Of a stretch of DNA of 64,000 bases, positions 923 through 60,644 are shown piece after piece. Below the pieces are notes generated by a model. The model was not told where the DNA came from, ran no database searches, and saw only the letters and a program-made list of their open reading frames with translations. The stretch's first letter is position 1. Every line of letters begins with the position of its first letter. The translations under genes were made by a program, and so were the position numbers. Source of the DNA: Novosphingobium sp. 28-62-57 (GTDB lineage: Bacteria; Pseudomonadota; Alphaproteobacteria; Sphingomonadales; Sphingomonadaceae). The stretch covers positions 186,001-250,000 of the forward strand of contig NCGO01000001.1 of NCBI GenBank assembly GCA_002256985.1. Direction: 5' to 3'.

Positions 923-2557
923 TCACATCCGAAACACCCCAAACCGGGGCGCCTCCGCAATCGGTGCCTGCAAACACACCTCCAACGCCAGCCCCAGCAC
1001 ATCGCGAGTCTGCACCGGATCAATCACCCCATCGTCCCACAGCCGCGCCGTGGCGTAATAGGGATTGCCCTCATCCTCATACTTCTGCCGCACCGGAGCC
1101 TTGAACGCCTCGGCCTCTTCCGGCGTCCACTTCGCGGCATCGCGATGCACCGTGGCCAGCACCGAAGCGGCCTGCTCCCCACCCATCACGCTGATCCGCG
1201 CATTGGGCCAGGTGAACAGGAAGCGCGGCTGATAGGCGCGCCCGCACATGCCGTAATTTCCCGCGCCAAAGCTGCCGCCGATCAGCACGGTCAGCTTCGG
1301 CACTTGCGCCGTCGCCACTGCCGTCACCAGCTTTGCGCCATGTTTGGCAATGCCTTCGGCCTCATACTTCCCACCTACCATGAAGCCTGACACGTTCTGC
1401 AGGAACAGCAAAGGAATCCGGCGCTGGCAGGCCAGTTCGATGAAGTGCGCTCCCTTCTGCGCGCTTTCGGAAAAGATCACGCCGTTGTTGGCCAGGATCG
1501 CCACCGGCTTGCCCCAGATATGCGCAAATCCGCAGACCAGCGTGGAGCCGTACAGCGCCTTGAACTCGTGAAACTCCGAGCCATCAACAATCCGCGCAAT
1601 CACCTCATGCACATCATATGGCGCACGCACGTCCTCCGGCACGATCGAATACAGATCCTCCGCCGGATAGAGCGGCGGCCTTACACCACCTCCGTTCGTG
1701 TCGAGCGAAGTCGAGACACGCTTCTCGACGTCGCTCGAAGCGAACGGTGAAGAGAGATGCGAAACGATATCCCGCACAATCGTCAGCGCATGTTCGTCAT
1801 TGTCGGCCAGATGATCGACCACGCCGATCTTGCGTGCGTGAAGATCGCCGCCCCCCAGCGCCTCGGCAGAAATCTCCTCACCCGTCGCCGCCTTCACCAA
1901 CGGGGGACCTGCCAGAAAAATCGTGCCCTGTTCGCGCACTATCACCGATTCATCAGACATCGCCGGAACATAGGCCCCGCCCGCCGTGCAAGACCCCATC
2001 ACACTGGCAATCTGCGGGATGCCCTGCGCGCTCATGTTCGCCTGATTGTAGAAGAACCGGCCAAAGTGATCGCGGTCCGGGAAAACTTCGGCCTGATTGG
2101 GCAGATTGGCCCCGCCGCTGTCGACCAGATAGATGCACGGCAACCGATTTTCCTGAGCGATTTCCTGCGCGCGCAAGTGCTTCTTCACCGTCATCGGGAA
2201 GTATGTGCCGCCCTTGACCGTCGCATCATTGGCAAAGATCATGCACTGGCGGCCCGAAACGCGCCCAATCCCGGCAATGATCCCTGCGCCCGGCACTTCA
2301 TCGCCATACATGCCATTGGCAGCCAGTTGCCCGATCTCCAGAAACGGCGACCCCGGATCAAGCAGCCGCTCCACCCGGTCACGCGGCAGCAGTTTCCCGC
2401 GCGAAACATGCCGCTCCCGGCTGCGCTCGTCTCCGCCCAGCGCCGCCTTGGACACGCGCGCGCGCAGCTCCTGCGCCAGCGCCCGATTATGCGCCGCCCG
2501 CGCCTGCGCCTGTTCCGAAGACAAATCGACAGCGCTCGCAAGAACCGGCCCGCTCAT
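923..2557 (-). CDS. mccB: Methylcrotonyl-CoA (acyl-CoA) carboxylase, carboxyltransferase subunit
   Basis: The 544-residue beta subunit moves CO2 from carboxybiotin to the acyl-CoA, here probably 3-methylcrotonyl-CoA in leucine and isovalerate catabolism. It shows the family's hallmarks: [20 protein letters not shown] near the N-terminus, [50 protein letters not shown], and in the C-terminal half [11 protein letters not shown] and [16 protein letters not shown]. The start at 2557 ([12 protein letters not shown]) was chosen because GGGGAGGA lies just upstream; that ribosome binding site is the end of a palindromic repeat. Residues about 270-289 are encoded by an R1 palindrome inserted in frame in the linker before [20 protein letters not shown]. 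Family members normally have an ordinary short linker there. It is the second gene of the ivd-mccB-orf-mccA operon. Confidence 0.93.
1692..1748. repeat. Palindromic repeat family R1, copy in frame inside mccB
   Basis: An imperfect palindrome whose left arm begins CCGTTCGTGTCGAGCG and whose right arm returns as a near reverse complement ending at about 1748. The left arm matches copies at 24542-24605 and 46462-46525, which lie between genes. Here the element is read on the minus strand as about 20 residues ([17 protein letters not shown]) in the linker between the two halves of the carboxyltransferase, without breaking the frame. The arms carry two mismatches, whereas the intergenic copies are perfect or nearly so. 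Confidence 0.85.
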
Positions 2558-2558
2558 G

Positions 2559-2684
2559 AATTCCTCCCCGGCATGGGGAGGGGGACCATGCGAAGCATGG
2601 TGGAGGGGCACAGGCCGGAGCGCACAACCGATGGTGCCCCTCCACCACCTGCGGTGGTCCCCCTTCCCCGGTGGGGGAGGAATT
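2559..2684. repeat. Palindromic repeat family R2, intergenic copy between ivd and mccB
   Basis: A 126-base element bounded by perfect inverted ends, AATTCCTCCCC and its reverse complement, with an inner stem GGTGGAGGGGCAC / GTGCCCCTCCACC. It fills almost the whole ivd-mccB gap. On the minus strand its end supplies GGGGAGGA as the ribosome binding site of mccB, two bases before the start. A second copy lies in frame inside cysS (60159-60277). Confidence 0.9.
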
Positions 2685-10497: not shown

Positions 10498-10532
10498 GCG
10501 ACCCTGTTTTCTCGTAACAGGCCCACCCCCGA

Positions 10533-10554
10533 CCCCTCCCGCAAGCGGGAGGGG
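10533..10554. repeat. GC-rich hairpin in the glgC-glgA gap
   Basis: CCCCTCCCGC and its perfect reverse complement GCGGGAGGGG are separated by two bases (AA) and lie between glgC and glgA. It could slow RNA decay, attenuate transcription, or be a remnant of a palindromic repeat. No T-run follows on the minus strand, so a simple intrinsic terminator is unlikely. Confidence 0.7.
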
Positions 10555-10585
10555 GGAATCTGGCCGATGAACCGCAAGTTCTCGC

Positions 10586-21765: not shown

Positions 21766-21789
21766 GCGGGTTGTGCGGCATAAAAAAAT

Positions 21790-21817
21790 GGGCCGCTCCG
21801 TTGCCGGGCGGCCCTTT
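21790..21817 (+). terminator. Intrinsic terminator after the quinone oxidoreductase gene
   Basis: GGGCCGC and GCGGCCC form a 7-base perfect stem followed by TTT, 25 bases after the stop codon. An A-run precedes the stem, so it may also act in the opposite direction. Confidence 0.75.
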
Positions 21818-22092
21818 GAAAGTTTGGGAGAGGATGCCTGAAAGGCTTCTTATGGGTGATCCTCGGGTCACGATTTCGCAAGTGCGAAATAGGAAACTGC
21901 GTTTGCAGTTTTTGCAATTCAATCGATGCTTGACACCGGTTTCTTGTGATTTTCCGGAATTTAGCAGCGTTATCAATGTCATTTTTCGGTCATCGGCGCA
22001 GTGCCCGAGCTTCGCAAACCGAGCCATCTTTGTTGCGCCTGCACATCAGGACAGGGGCGCGCCATGCATTTGCCCTGTTGCGCCCTTGGGAC

Positions 22093-24507: not shown

Positions 24508-24643
24508 TTAGAGCGTGTTGACGTTAGCCTCGTCCAATTCTCCGTTCGTGTCGAGCGAAGTCGAGACATAACTCTCGGTGTCTCGACTTCGCTCGACACG
24601 AACGGGACTTGATGTGAATTGATGTAAAATCATCACGCTCTAA
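24508..24643. repeat. MITE-like element with 10-base terminal inverted repeats enclosing an R1 palindrome
   Basis: TTAGAGCGTG at 24508-24517 is the perfect reverse complement of CACGCTCTAA at 24634-24643. The match continues weakly inwards (TGA after one mismatch). Between them lies a perfect R1 palindrome: 27-base arms at 24542-24568 and 24579-24605 over a 10-base loop. The 136-base unit has no coding capacity. It sits between the ech terminator and the FAD oxidoreductase gene. Confidence 0.75.
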
Positions 24644-46460: not shown

Positions 46461-46461
46461 T

Positions 46462-46525
46462 CCGTTCGTGTCGAGCGTAGTCGAGACACGGCGCGCGGTG
46501 TCTCGACTACGCTCGATACGAACGG
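46462..46525. repeat. Palindromic repeat family R1, copy between CPBP and photolyase genes
   Basis: 27-base arms (46462-46488 and 46499-46525) beginning CCGTTCGTGTCGAGCG over a 10-base loop, with one mismatch pair. It lies between two convergent genes, starting 2 bases after one stop and ending 6 bases before the other, followed by TTATTTTTT on the plus strand. It therefore also suits a terminator role. Confidence 0.88.
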
Positions 46526-46530
46526 AACCG

Positions 46531-58823: not shown

Positions 58824-60644
58824 ATGTCTGATGTTCCCGCACCCGCCGCACCGCTGAAGCTGTTCAACAGCCTGACCCGCCAGTTGGAAGAGTTCCAGCC
58901 GGTCCATACCGGCGAAGCGCGCGTCTATTCCTGCGGGCCAACGGTCTATAACTACCCGCACATCGGCAACATGCGCGCTTATGTCTTTGCCGACATTCTG
59001 GGCCGCACGCTGTCGTTCAAGGGCTACAAGCTCACCCATGTCATCAACATCACCGATGTGGGCCATCTGACCGACGATGCCGATGCGGGCGAGGACAAGA
59101 TGGAGAAAATGGCCCGCACTGAAGCGAAGTCCATCTGGGACATCGCGCAGCACTATACGCAGGCCTACTGGGAAGACATCAAGGCGCTGAACATCCGCCA
59201 GCCCGCGCGCTGGACAATTGCCACTGAATACGTGCCGCAGATGATCCAGTTTGCTGAACGGATCGCGGACAAGCACTGCTACGAACTCGACAGTGGGCTC
59301 TATTTCGATGTTTCGACTGTTGAGAACTACGGGCGGCTTGGCGGCATAAAATCTGAACTTGCCATAGAGATGAGGCAGCTTGTTAGGCGGTTGGGGGACA
59401 TTTCGCACGATGGAACGGATGCGTTCTCAATTAAGATGCGGATTTACGAAGAGGTGGAGAATTTTGTCGAACTTTTAGTCAGGCTGAAGAATGAATCGGC
59501 AGCAAAAGATAAATATCAAGATTTCATCGATCTTTGGAAATCAACTCCTTCGCCAGACAACAACGAGTTCAACGATAAATTTTCAGAAACATTGGCGGAA
59601 GTTAAAAAATTTTTAGAATCTGCTAAAGCTGAGGCGCGGATCGAAGAGGTTAAGGGAAAGCGTAACGAGGAAGATTTCGCAATCTGGCGCAAGACTCCGC
59701 CGGGCGAGAAGCGCCAGATGGAATGGGATTCGCCGTGGGGGAAGGGCGCTCCGGGCTGGCATCTGGAATGCTCGGTCATGTCGGGCGAAGTGCTCGGCTT
59801 TCCGTTCGATATCCACACCGGCGGCATCGATCACCGCGAAATCCACCACCCTTCCGAGATTGCGCAGAACCAGGCGTTCTGCTGCGCGGGAGGCCTCGAT
59901 CTGCCCGCCAATTCGGGCGCGCGGGTGTGGATGCACAACAACTTCCTCGTCGAACGTTCGGGCAAGATGAGCAAGTCATCAGGCGAGTTCCTGCGGCTGC
60001 AACTGCTGATCGACAAAGGCTACCACCCGCTCGCCTACCGCATGATGTGCCTGCAGGCGCATTATCGGTCTGAGCTGGAGTTTTCGTGGGACGGGCTGGG
60101 CGCGGCGCTGACGCGGTTGAAGCGGATGTTGATGGCCATCGAGCAGTTGAAGGCGCGCATTCCTCCCCCAACGGGGGAGGGGGACCACCCGCAGGGTGGT
60201 GGAGGGGCACCCTCCGTCACGCACGACGGTGCCCCTCCACCATCTGCGATGTTCCCCCTCCCCGTGCCGGGGAGGAAGTTCACGCCATTCCTCGAACGCT
60301 TTGAATCCGCCGTTTCGGACGACCTCAACACGCCTGTTGCACTGACCGTGTTCGAGGAGGTGCTTGCGCTCAAGAAAGTTGATCCGGCGGAAAAGCTGGC
60401 GGCGCTTGCGGCTATGGATGCGGTTCTGGGCCTTGGTTTTCTAACGCTGGAACGTGCAGAGTTGCGGCTCAGGCCGAAGGGGGTTGAGACAGAGACGGCA
60501 GAAATTGAAGCAACTCTCGCAGCCCGCAAAGCTGCCCGCGCCGACAAAGACTTCGCCCGCTCCGACGCTCTGCGCGATGAACTCTCCGCCAAGGGCGTCG
60601 AAGTCATGGACGGCGATCCGCTTGGTTGGGAGTGGAAGCTGTGA
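58824..60644 (+). CDS. cysS: Cysteinyl-tRNA synthetase with two in-frame insertions
   Basis: A 606-residue cysteinyl-tRNA synthetase; the family is normally about 460-500 residues. Essential parts are intact: zinc and substrate Cys in VYSCGPTVYNYPHIGNMRAY (C37; HIGN 46-49), the zinc Cys/His in GWHLECSVMSGEVLG and HTGGIDHREIHHPSEIAQNQ, and GKMSKSSGEF (KMSKS 381-385). The extra length has two causes. Residues about 175-278 are an AT-rich helical insertion between YGRLGG and EDFAIWRKTPPGEK. Residues about 446-485 are an in-frame copy of palindrome R2, in the linker before FLERFESAVSDDLNTP. No stop or frameshift is seen, so the protein is probably functional. No second cysS is in the window. Confidence 0.93.
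   Translation: MSDVPAPAAPLKLFNSLTRQLEEFQPVHTGEARVYSCGPTVYNYPHIGNMRAYVFADILGRTLSFKGYKLTHVINITDVGHLTDDADAGEDKMEKMARTEAKSIWDIAQHYTQAYWEDIKALNIRQPARWTIATEYVPQMIQFAERIADKHCYELDSGLYFDVSTVENYGRLGGIKSELAIEMRQLVRRLGDISHDGTDAFSIKMRIYEEVENFVELLVRLKNESAAKDKYQDFIDLWKSTPSPDNNEFNDKFSETLAEVKKFLESAKAEARIEEVKGKRNEEDFAIWRKTPPGEKRQMEWDSPWGKGAPGWHLECSVMSGEVLGFPFDIHTGGIDHREIHHPSEIAQNQAFCCAGGLDLPANSGARVWMHNNFLVERSGKMSKSSGEFLRLQLLIDKGYHPLAYRMMCLQAHYRSELEFSWDGLGAALTRLKRMLMAIEQLKARIPPPTGEGDHPQGGGGAPSVTHDGAPPPSAMFPLPVPGRKFTPFLERFESAVSDDLNTPVALTVFEEVLALKKVDPAEKLAALAAMDAVLGLGFLTLERAELRLRPKGVETETAEIEATLAARKAARADKDFARSDALRDELSAKGVEVMDGDPLGWEWKL
59345..59665 (+). other. AT-rich in-frame insertion in cysS
   Basis: The base composition changes sharply: 21, 23 and 23 of each 60 bases are G or C at 59461-59520, 59521-59580 and 59581-59640, against GC-rich flanks. 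The encoded text (IYEEVENFVELLVRLKNES, FSETLAEVKKFLESAKAEA) is strongly helical and Lys/Glu-rich. Family members have only about 15-20 residues here. Boundaries are approximate. Confidence 0.8.
60159..60277. repeat. Palindromic repeat family R2, copy in frame inside cysS
   Basis: Outer ends ATTCCTCCCC and GGGGAGGAA with the inner stem TGGTGGAGGGGCAC / GTGCCCCTCCACCA, as in the intergenic copy at 2559-2684. It is translated as a proline- and glycine-rich segment (PPPTGEGDHPQGGGGAPS and on) of about 40 residues. Confidence 0.9.

Follow-up and report, generated by a model that had tools for sequence, protein, structure and literature searches.

Short palindromic repeats occur widely among bacteria, and to our knowledge it is unclear what moves them outside the RAYT systems. 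The cysS gene of Novosphingobium sp. 28-62-57 carries such a repeat, here called R2, within its open reading frame. The repeat is dispersed in the genome, has empty sites in relatives and is found in frame in two tRNA synthetases, CysS and IleS. Our main interpretation, to which we assign a probability of roughly 0.6, is that R2 is a non-autonomous, MITE-like palindrome, a copy of a DUF559 nuclease element that lacks the nuclease gene and is tolerated in loops of CysS and IleS. The DNA analysed, referred to as the window, is a stretch of 64,000 nucleotides; the genome to which it belongs is labelled G000, and the other G and L codes denote genus genomes and loci. Between the genus genomes and the named loci, most of which are Novosphingobium, 25 pairs of CysS sequences are identical in the part compared, in agreement with a position of G000 within this genus or beside it.

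A palindrome in the reading frame of cysS

The cysS gene (58824..60644, plus strand) is a single frame of 606 codons, identified as CysRS by its Pfam match, and it runs unbroken across R2, which bears out the first-pass annotation of a palindrome in frame inside a tRNA synthetase. R2 is an inverted pair of a two-hairpin unit of about 50 nt, located at 60159..60278 (plus strand) and corresponding to residues 446-485; the palindrome was first placed at 60159..60277, of which the start holds and the codon-complete end is 60278. The left half-unit (60159..60209, plus strand) contains the ATTCCTCCCC hairpin, followed by a GGACCA..TGGTGG hairpin and the terminal GGTGGAGGGGCA, and is separated by a central spacer (60210-60229) from the inverted right half-unit (60230..60278, minus strand). 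Each half-unit, about 50 nt long, combines two hairpins, CCTCCCC..GGGGAGG and GGACC..GGTGG, with the end sequence GGAGGGG. A long hairpin is predicted for positions 60155-60282, with a DNA minimum free energy of -50.1 kcal/mol, a value (z -8.3) that was matched by 0 of 200 shuffled sequences. No Rfam family matched the R2 site at gathering thresholds, the only Rfam match in the window being an mmgR/suhB-type sRNA (RF00519) at 21775-21853 on the minus strand.

In the AlphaFold model of CysS, residues 445-483 (approximately) are predicted to form a coil between helices 422-444 and 484-498. The confidence over residues 451-480 is low (pLDDT 48-61; mean of the model 69.9), but this is not specific to R2, because stretches of the catalytic core are equally low. 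The protein has a second insert at 59345-59640, which is AT-rich (41% GC versus 58-62% around it) and encodes about 90 residues that are predicted to be helical in the same model. A segment of more than 60 residues was found at this position in 12 of the 156 CysS loci in which the two flanking motifs are present, a count that includes duplicates of one genome, and the sequences of these segments are varied.

The CysS linker was compared across 99 genus genomes, of which 95 were matched and 86 loci were used; together with 80 named loci this gave 166 loci, 163 of which could be parsed into 138 distinct linkers. As many as 100 of these were classed as empty, meaning a linker of less than 45 residues that fits no element, so that the empty site proposed for relatives is indeed present. 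R2 was identified in four linkers (three full, one half) and R2 remnants in three, and the other palindromes comprised 12 P3 (one partial), one P4, one P5 and one doubtful case, the remnant, P4, P5 and doubtful classes being assigned by eye. The remainder consisted of ten linkers of a “GGWT” type and six long linkers without family. The estimate of about 40 added residues is correct for R2 itself, which spans 40 codons, but the net gain over the empty segment of 62-65 residues is 28-31, since some of the linker that is usually present is missing from the R2 form.

P3 is the commonest insert in CysS; it begins with CGTCATGCTGAACTTGTTTCAG.., encodes the peptide RHAELVSAS..WTLKQVQGD and starts at almost the same codon as R2. 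P4 (in L179) and P5 (in L223) differ from both R2 and P3, although the layout of P4 resembles R2 overall and P5 has its CGTC end in common with P3. The CysS linker is hence occupied in frame by at least four palindrome families (R2, P3, P4 and P5) in Novosphingobium and its relatives. An unguided score recovered inverted repeats in 16 of the 138 linkers, one of which (L169) was classed as empty, versus 1 of 570 control windows elsewhere in the frames. On a tree of 133 CysS sequences, from which short ones such as L036 were left out, R2 including its remnants requires 6 changes and P3 requires 11, numbers that combine gains and losses and are not counts of insertions. The ten CysS proteins with GGWT in a longer linker (L152, L181, L183 and others) are near one another on this tree, and their linker may be an eroded element.

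The R2 copies in the CysS genes of G000, G018 and G065 have their boundaries and loop-edge bases in common, for which reason they are likely to be related by common descent, as far as the sequences tell. Several insertions into CysS had been our first idea, but given the shared boundaries a single insertion followed by losses is likelier. Over the 41-codon R2 segment, G000 and G018 differ by nine nonsynonymous and no synonymous changes (pS 0.00, pN 0.10), whereas the remainder of the C-terminal half of CysS has pS 0.33 and pN 0.046. The two pairs that include G065 follow the same pattern, with pS/pN of 0.16/0.15 versus 0.54/0.11 and of 0.15/0.17 versus 0.49/0.10. Judging from these substitutions, R2 in CysS evolves as DNA, with no apparent constraint at the protein level. 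The segment also diverges more slowly than the surrounding synonymous sites, which could be caused by gene conversion among R2 copies, by transfer or by later arrival.

We also considered the possibility of a conserved linker of the protein that is palindromic by appearance only, as the presence of the segment with identical boundaries in the CysS of several genus members might suggest. However, this is contradicted by the R2 copies in unrelated places described below, by the empty sites, by the lack of a synonymous excess in the segment and by the different families of palindromes that occupy this loop elsewhere, and we regard such an origin as very improbable.

Over 14 R2 pairs from G000 and other genomes, 70 of the 84 frames are open; the corresponding share is 45% after base shuffling of R2 and 55% in random 120-mers drawn from the collected loci. 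P3 is readable only in the first frame of each strand (13 of 114 frames in 19 pairs; shuffled 27.5%). Since most of its frames are without stops, the landing of R2 in genes should be unusually harmless.

Copies of R2 and other palindromes outside cysS

The second in-frame copy of R2 in G000 is located in the IleS linker PQWFVPMD..TLR, with its halves in the opposite order to those in cysS. IleS was matched in 98 of the 99 genus genomes and 90 loci were read, the families being assigned by pattern and by eye. The linkers contained R2 in four cases (one an R2/P4 chimera), P4 in two, P7 in five (one half), P1 in four, P8 in two and a nameless, weaker inverted repeat in three, and those of 38-41 residues appear empty. 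At least five palindrome families (R2, P4, P7, P1 and P8) therefore occupy this linker in frame, and the unguided score detected inverted repeats in 19 of 90 linkers versus 1 of 360 control windows elsewhere in the frames. Palindromes of several families do repeatedly occupy the two synthetase loops in frame. Partial regular-expression matches to P5 in IleS were judged to be due to chance. In the IleS of G091 (L359), the linker region has 152 residues and no palindrome was found in it.

P3 is also in frame in TruB of G083 and in CobN of G069. In G000, 30 places were read of 70 matches to P3, and a spanning frame of at least 100 amino acids was present in seven; inspection by eye of six of these seven frames revealed no clear internal insertion of P3 in a conserved protein. 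In G094 (975 amino acids), G003 and G071, the long frames across P3 looked antisense by eye and were left out of the counts. Another palindrome family, P1 (GTGTCGAGCGAAGTCGAGACAC), is represented in the window at 1691-1758, 24541-24608 and 46461-46528, and it is P1 that is also in frame in the IleS of other genus members.

Further copies of R2 are present in G000, and with the empty sites in CysS this means that neither of the two refutations foreseen by the first-pass annotation applies. A BLAST search yielded 59 pieces at E <= 10, many of them both strands of one palindrome, and the 12-base core of R2 has 21 exact matches. With one mismatch allowed there are 66 matches versus 40 for the reversed pattern, so that inexact core matches alone mean little. 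The 28 BLAST loci reduce to 13 distinct places with the R2 core and one further place (L006) without it, arranged as lone halves or as inverted pairs, the cores of which are separated by about 20 to 440 nt. When the frames at the 13 places were translated, recognisable protein surrounded R2 only at cysS and ileS, and a Pfam scan of eight R2-spanning frames in G000 gave no match. Beyond this genome, the exact paired core was identified in 10 of the 99 genus genomes (reversed pattern 0), with 18 pairs in G075, and R2-like DNA was detected on 11 plasmid records, every one from Sphingomonas or Sphingobium. The description of R2 as a protein-coding mobile palindrome is accordingly only partly borne out: R2 is dispersed, with empty sites, and in frame in an essential gene, but “protein-coding” is too strong, because there is no sign of protein-level constraint and only 2 of the 13 places in G000 are inside a recognisable protein.

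The copy of R2 at 2560..2684, between coding regions called ivd and mccB by the first-pass annotation, is 75-77% identical to the one in cysS over two compared blocks and folds with a z of -7.4, and it was rightly recognised as the same palindrome. It is missing or replaced in relatives. The comparison covered 22 of 30 loci including that of G000, in other words 21 of 29 relatives, and 8 of these 21 are without 136-140 nt at this site (G074, G072, G046, G032, G024, G063, G003 and G084), with a flank identity of 89% in G074. Among the others, G083 has an R2/P4-like palindrome, G070 has a P4-like pair, G044 is alignable throughout, nine relatives have other or longer content and G057 is comparable on one flank only. 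No target duplication was identified at ivd-mccB, the flanks of empty and filled sites being too diverged for one to be recognised. The left end of this R2 copy, before the mccB start codon, is the Shine-Dalgarno-like GGGAGGAATTC (GGGGAGGAATTC-ATG; 2556-2569, minus strand), and likewise the end GGGGAGGAATAAG-ATG of an R2 copy in a pnt operon (L487) precedes the next gene.

DUF559 genes between palindromic arms

At one place in G000 (L013/L469), a DUF559 gene lies between R2 halves that are inverted relative to each other and separated by about 440 nt. As in MITEs, the ends of R2 are here shared with a gene-bearing element of the same genome, with DUF559 as the candidate mobilising enzyme. Genes of this family are present in 50 of 59 genus genomes. 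Of the 30 best matches listed, which are not a random draw, two were truncated at contig ends and 28 loci were usable. In 24 of these 28 the flanks of the gene gave an inverted-repeat score of at least 20, whereas none of 108 control windows displaced by 0.9-1 kb reached this value (maximum 14). Reducing 53 loci, three of them on plasmids, to one locus for each shared surrounding gave 20 clusters, some of them chained; arms were present in 16 of these 20 if the first locus by name was taken and in 17 if the best was taken, and hence absent in three or four. In a survey of 80 genomes across the order, 29 DUF559 loci were retrieved, of which three lacked the motif and three were cut by contig ends; 15 of the 23 usable loci scored at least 18, versus 0 of 92 shifted windows, and in terms of clusters the arms were found in 8 of 10. 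The association of such palindromes, R2 included, with DUF559 nucleases is strong.

At most DUF559 genes the flanks are inverted arms that belong to a single family, and the arm family tracks the nuclease lineage. On the nuclease tree, the arm family changes 13 times as compared to a mean of 30.8 after shuffling, and after deduplication 8 times as compared to 12.5, with 0 of 200 shuffles as low in both cases. R2-armed DUF559 genes are also found on plasmids, one of Sphingobium sp. RAC03 and one of Sphingomonas parapaucimobilis; the latter gene is within the pnt operon, in surroundings common to five genus loci. A P4-armed gene is carried by a plasmid of Novosphingobium sp. THN1. Fifteen loci (L436-L439, L441-L446, L451, L470-L472 and L474) are chained by shared surroundings and differ in their arm families, as if one chromosomal place had been reused. 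The P7 type flanks many DUF559 genes, and a lone P7-like half-unit is located at 10520-10560 in the window. A PADLOC search with the DUF559 protein gave a weak match only (E 0.002).

Some observations speak against the derivation of R2 from DUF559 elements. No transposition of R2 was seen. The harder control, in which flanks were swapped between loci, placed only 21 of 49 loci in the top 5%, because arm families recur among loci. The R2 arm group alone, after deduplication, did not cluster on the nuclease tree beyond chance (3 changes; 100 of 500 shuffles as low), and of the seven genus loci with R2 arms, five represent a single orthologous site. No R2 arms were seen by eye among the 15 armed loci of the order-wide survey, the arms of which are of P7, P9 and similar types. 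Finally, the commonest insert in CysS, P3, is a CGTC-type REP for which no link to DUF559 was seen here.

Another explanation is that DUF559 is the passenger, having landed in the loops of palindromes that another process spreads, for example replication slippage, template switching or a transposase of unknown identity. A DUF559 gene is enclosed at only 1 of the 13 R2 places in G000, and P3, P1 and P8 are dispersed with no link to DUF559 seen here, both of which speak for this explanation. On the other hand, the arm family follows the nuclease lineage, and an arm tends to resemble its partner at the locus more than it resembles the arms of other loci, as indicated by the same 21 of 49 loci in the top 5%. 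We consider a passenger role for DUF559 unlikely, but it is the most serious of the rival explanations.

We favor the hypothesis that R2 derives from the nuclease element. Its unit of about 50 nt, with two small hairpins and often in inverted pairs, also makes up the two inverted arms around a DUF559 gene, and the simplest reading is then that a lone R2 is a DUF559-armed element minus its nuclease gene. The nuclease, or the repair of the breaks that it makes, may drive the spread of R2; we infer that it is the DUF559 nuclease that moves the palindrome. Some copies may have landed in CysS and IleS loops that accommodate additional residues without harm, and may have been kept there since most of their frames are without stops. 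We also infer that the insert is translated, in which case the peptide would be a passenger that is not selected as protein.

A broader and more tentative hypothesis, which we hold to be somewhat less probable than not, is that R2, P4, P7 and P9 serve as arms in minimal mobile elements of a new class, each consisting of a Vsr-like DUF559 gene between two inverted, self-folding palindromes. Each nuclease lineage might recognise its own hairpin and spread it, with or without the gene, via break repair, and the CysS and IleS linkers might serve as recurrent landing pads in which elements are swapped over time.

Relation to known systems and implications

The Rickettsia palindromic elements (RPE) are dispersed palindromes that are in frame inside conserved genes. 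R2 resembles them in being in frame in conserved genes (CysS and IleS) with empty sites in relatives; unlike them, as far as a comparison by description goes, R2 is GC-rich, open in most frames, found in sphingomonads and of a family that flanks DUF559. In the REPIN/RAYT systems, a small nuclease family is linked to inverted palindromes and lone copies outnumber those that bear the gene. The R2-type palindromes are likewise associated with a small nuclease family and their lone copies exceed the gene-bearing ones, but the partner of R2 is a DUF559 protein (PD-(D/E)XK, Vsr-like) between the arms and not a Y1 transposase.

An ordinary REP or REPIN moved by a RAYT (Y1) transposase would also account for R2 half-units that are present both alone and as inverted pairs. 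G000 has one weak match to Y1_Tnp (32 bits, cut-off 23), and at 2 of 9 Y1_Tnp loci the flanks do contain some form of inverted repeat, with scores of 18.5 and 22.5. However, R2 is without a GTAG or CGTC end tag, the R2, P4, P7 and P9 motifs were found at 0 of the 9 Y1_Tnp loci (eight and the one in G000) in the DNA examined there, and Y1_Tnp was not matched in 42 of 59 genomes. Mobilisation by RAYT is in our opinion improbable.

The first-pass annotation knew of nothing similar in sphingomonads, but palindromes inside open reading frames of sphingomonad synthetases had already been published. Di Nocera (2013; PMC3733652) describes CGTC- and GTAG-tagged REPs as small palindromes that form inverted dimers, some of them inside open reading frames, including those of tRNA synthetases in E. 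litoralis and S. alaskensis and of TruB. The occurrence of different REPs at about one site of one gene is mentioned there once, for recB in two Xanthomonas, and the words “cysteinyl” and “CysS” are absent from its main text (PMC3733652). R2 forms inverted dimers like these REPs, but R2, P4, P7 and P9 carry neither tag, the ends of R2 being ATTCCTCCCC and GGGGAGGAAT. P3, which starts with CGTC and is also present in TruB (G083), fits the CGTC-tagged class.

A member of the same domain family as the palindrome-armed DUF559 proteins, VsrA of Caulobacter, is reported to be responsible for an SOS response in cells without a methyltransferase, and neither “palindrom” nor “transpos” occurs in the main text of that article (PMC12907096). 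In the titles and abstract openings surveyed on DUF559, Vsr-like elements, intragenic palindromes and repeats in Caulobacter and sphingomonads, a set drawn mainly from outside the subscription journals, we found no description of DUF559 between palindromes. Within the literature searched, the link between DUF559 and palindromes is apparently new, and it is the in-frame REPs in sphingomonad synthetases that were already known.

A nuclease family situated between matching arms is a concrete and testable candidate for the mover of palindromes. The CysS and IleS loops represent natural experiments that reveal where essential enzymes can accept insertions of different DNA time and again, and they also illustrate how mobile DNA can yield new protein segments. 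If true, the link to DUF559 would give a role to a family that is listed by Pfam as being of unknown function.
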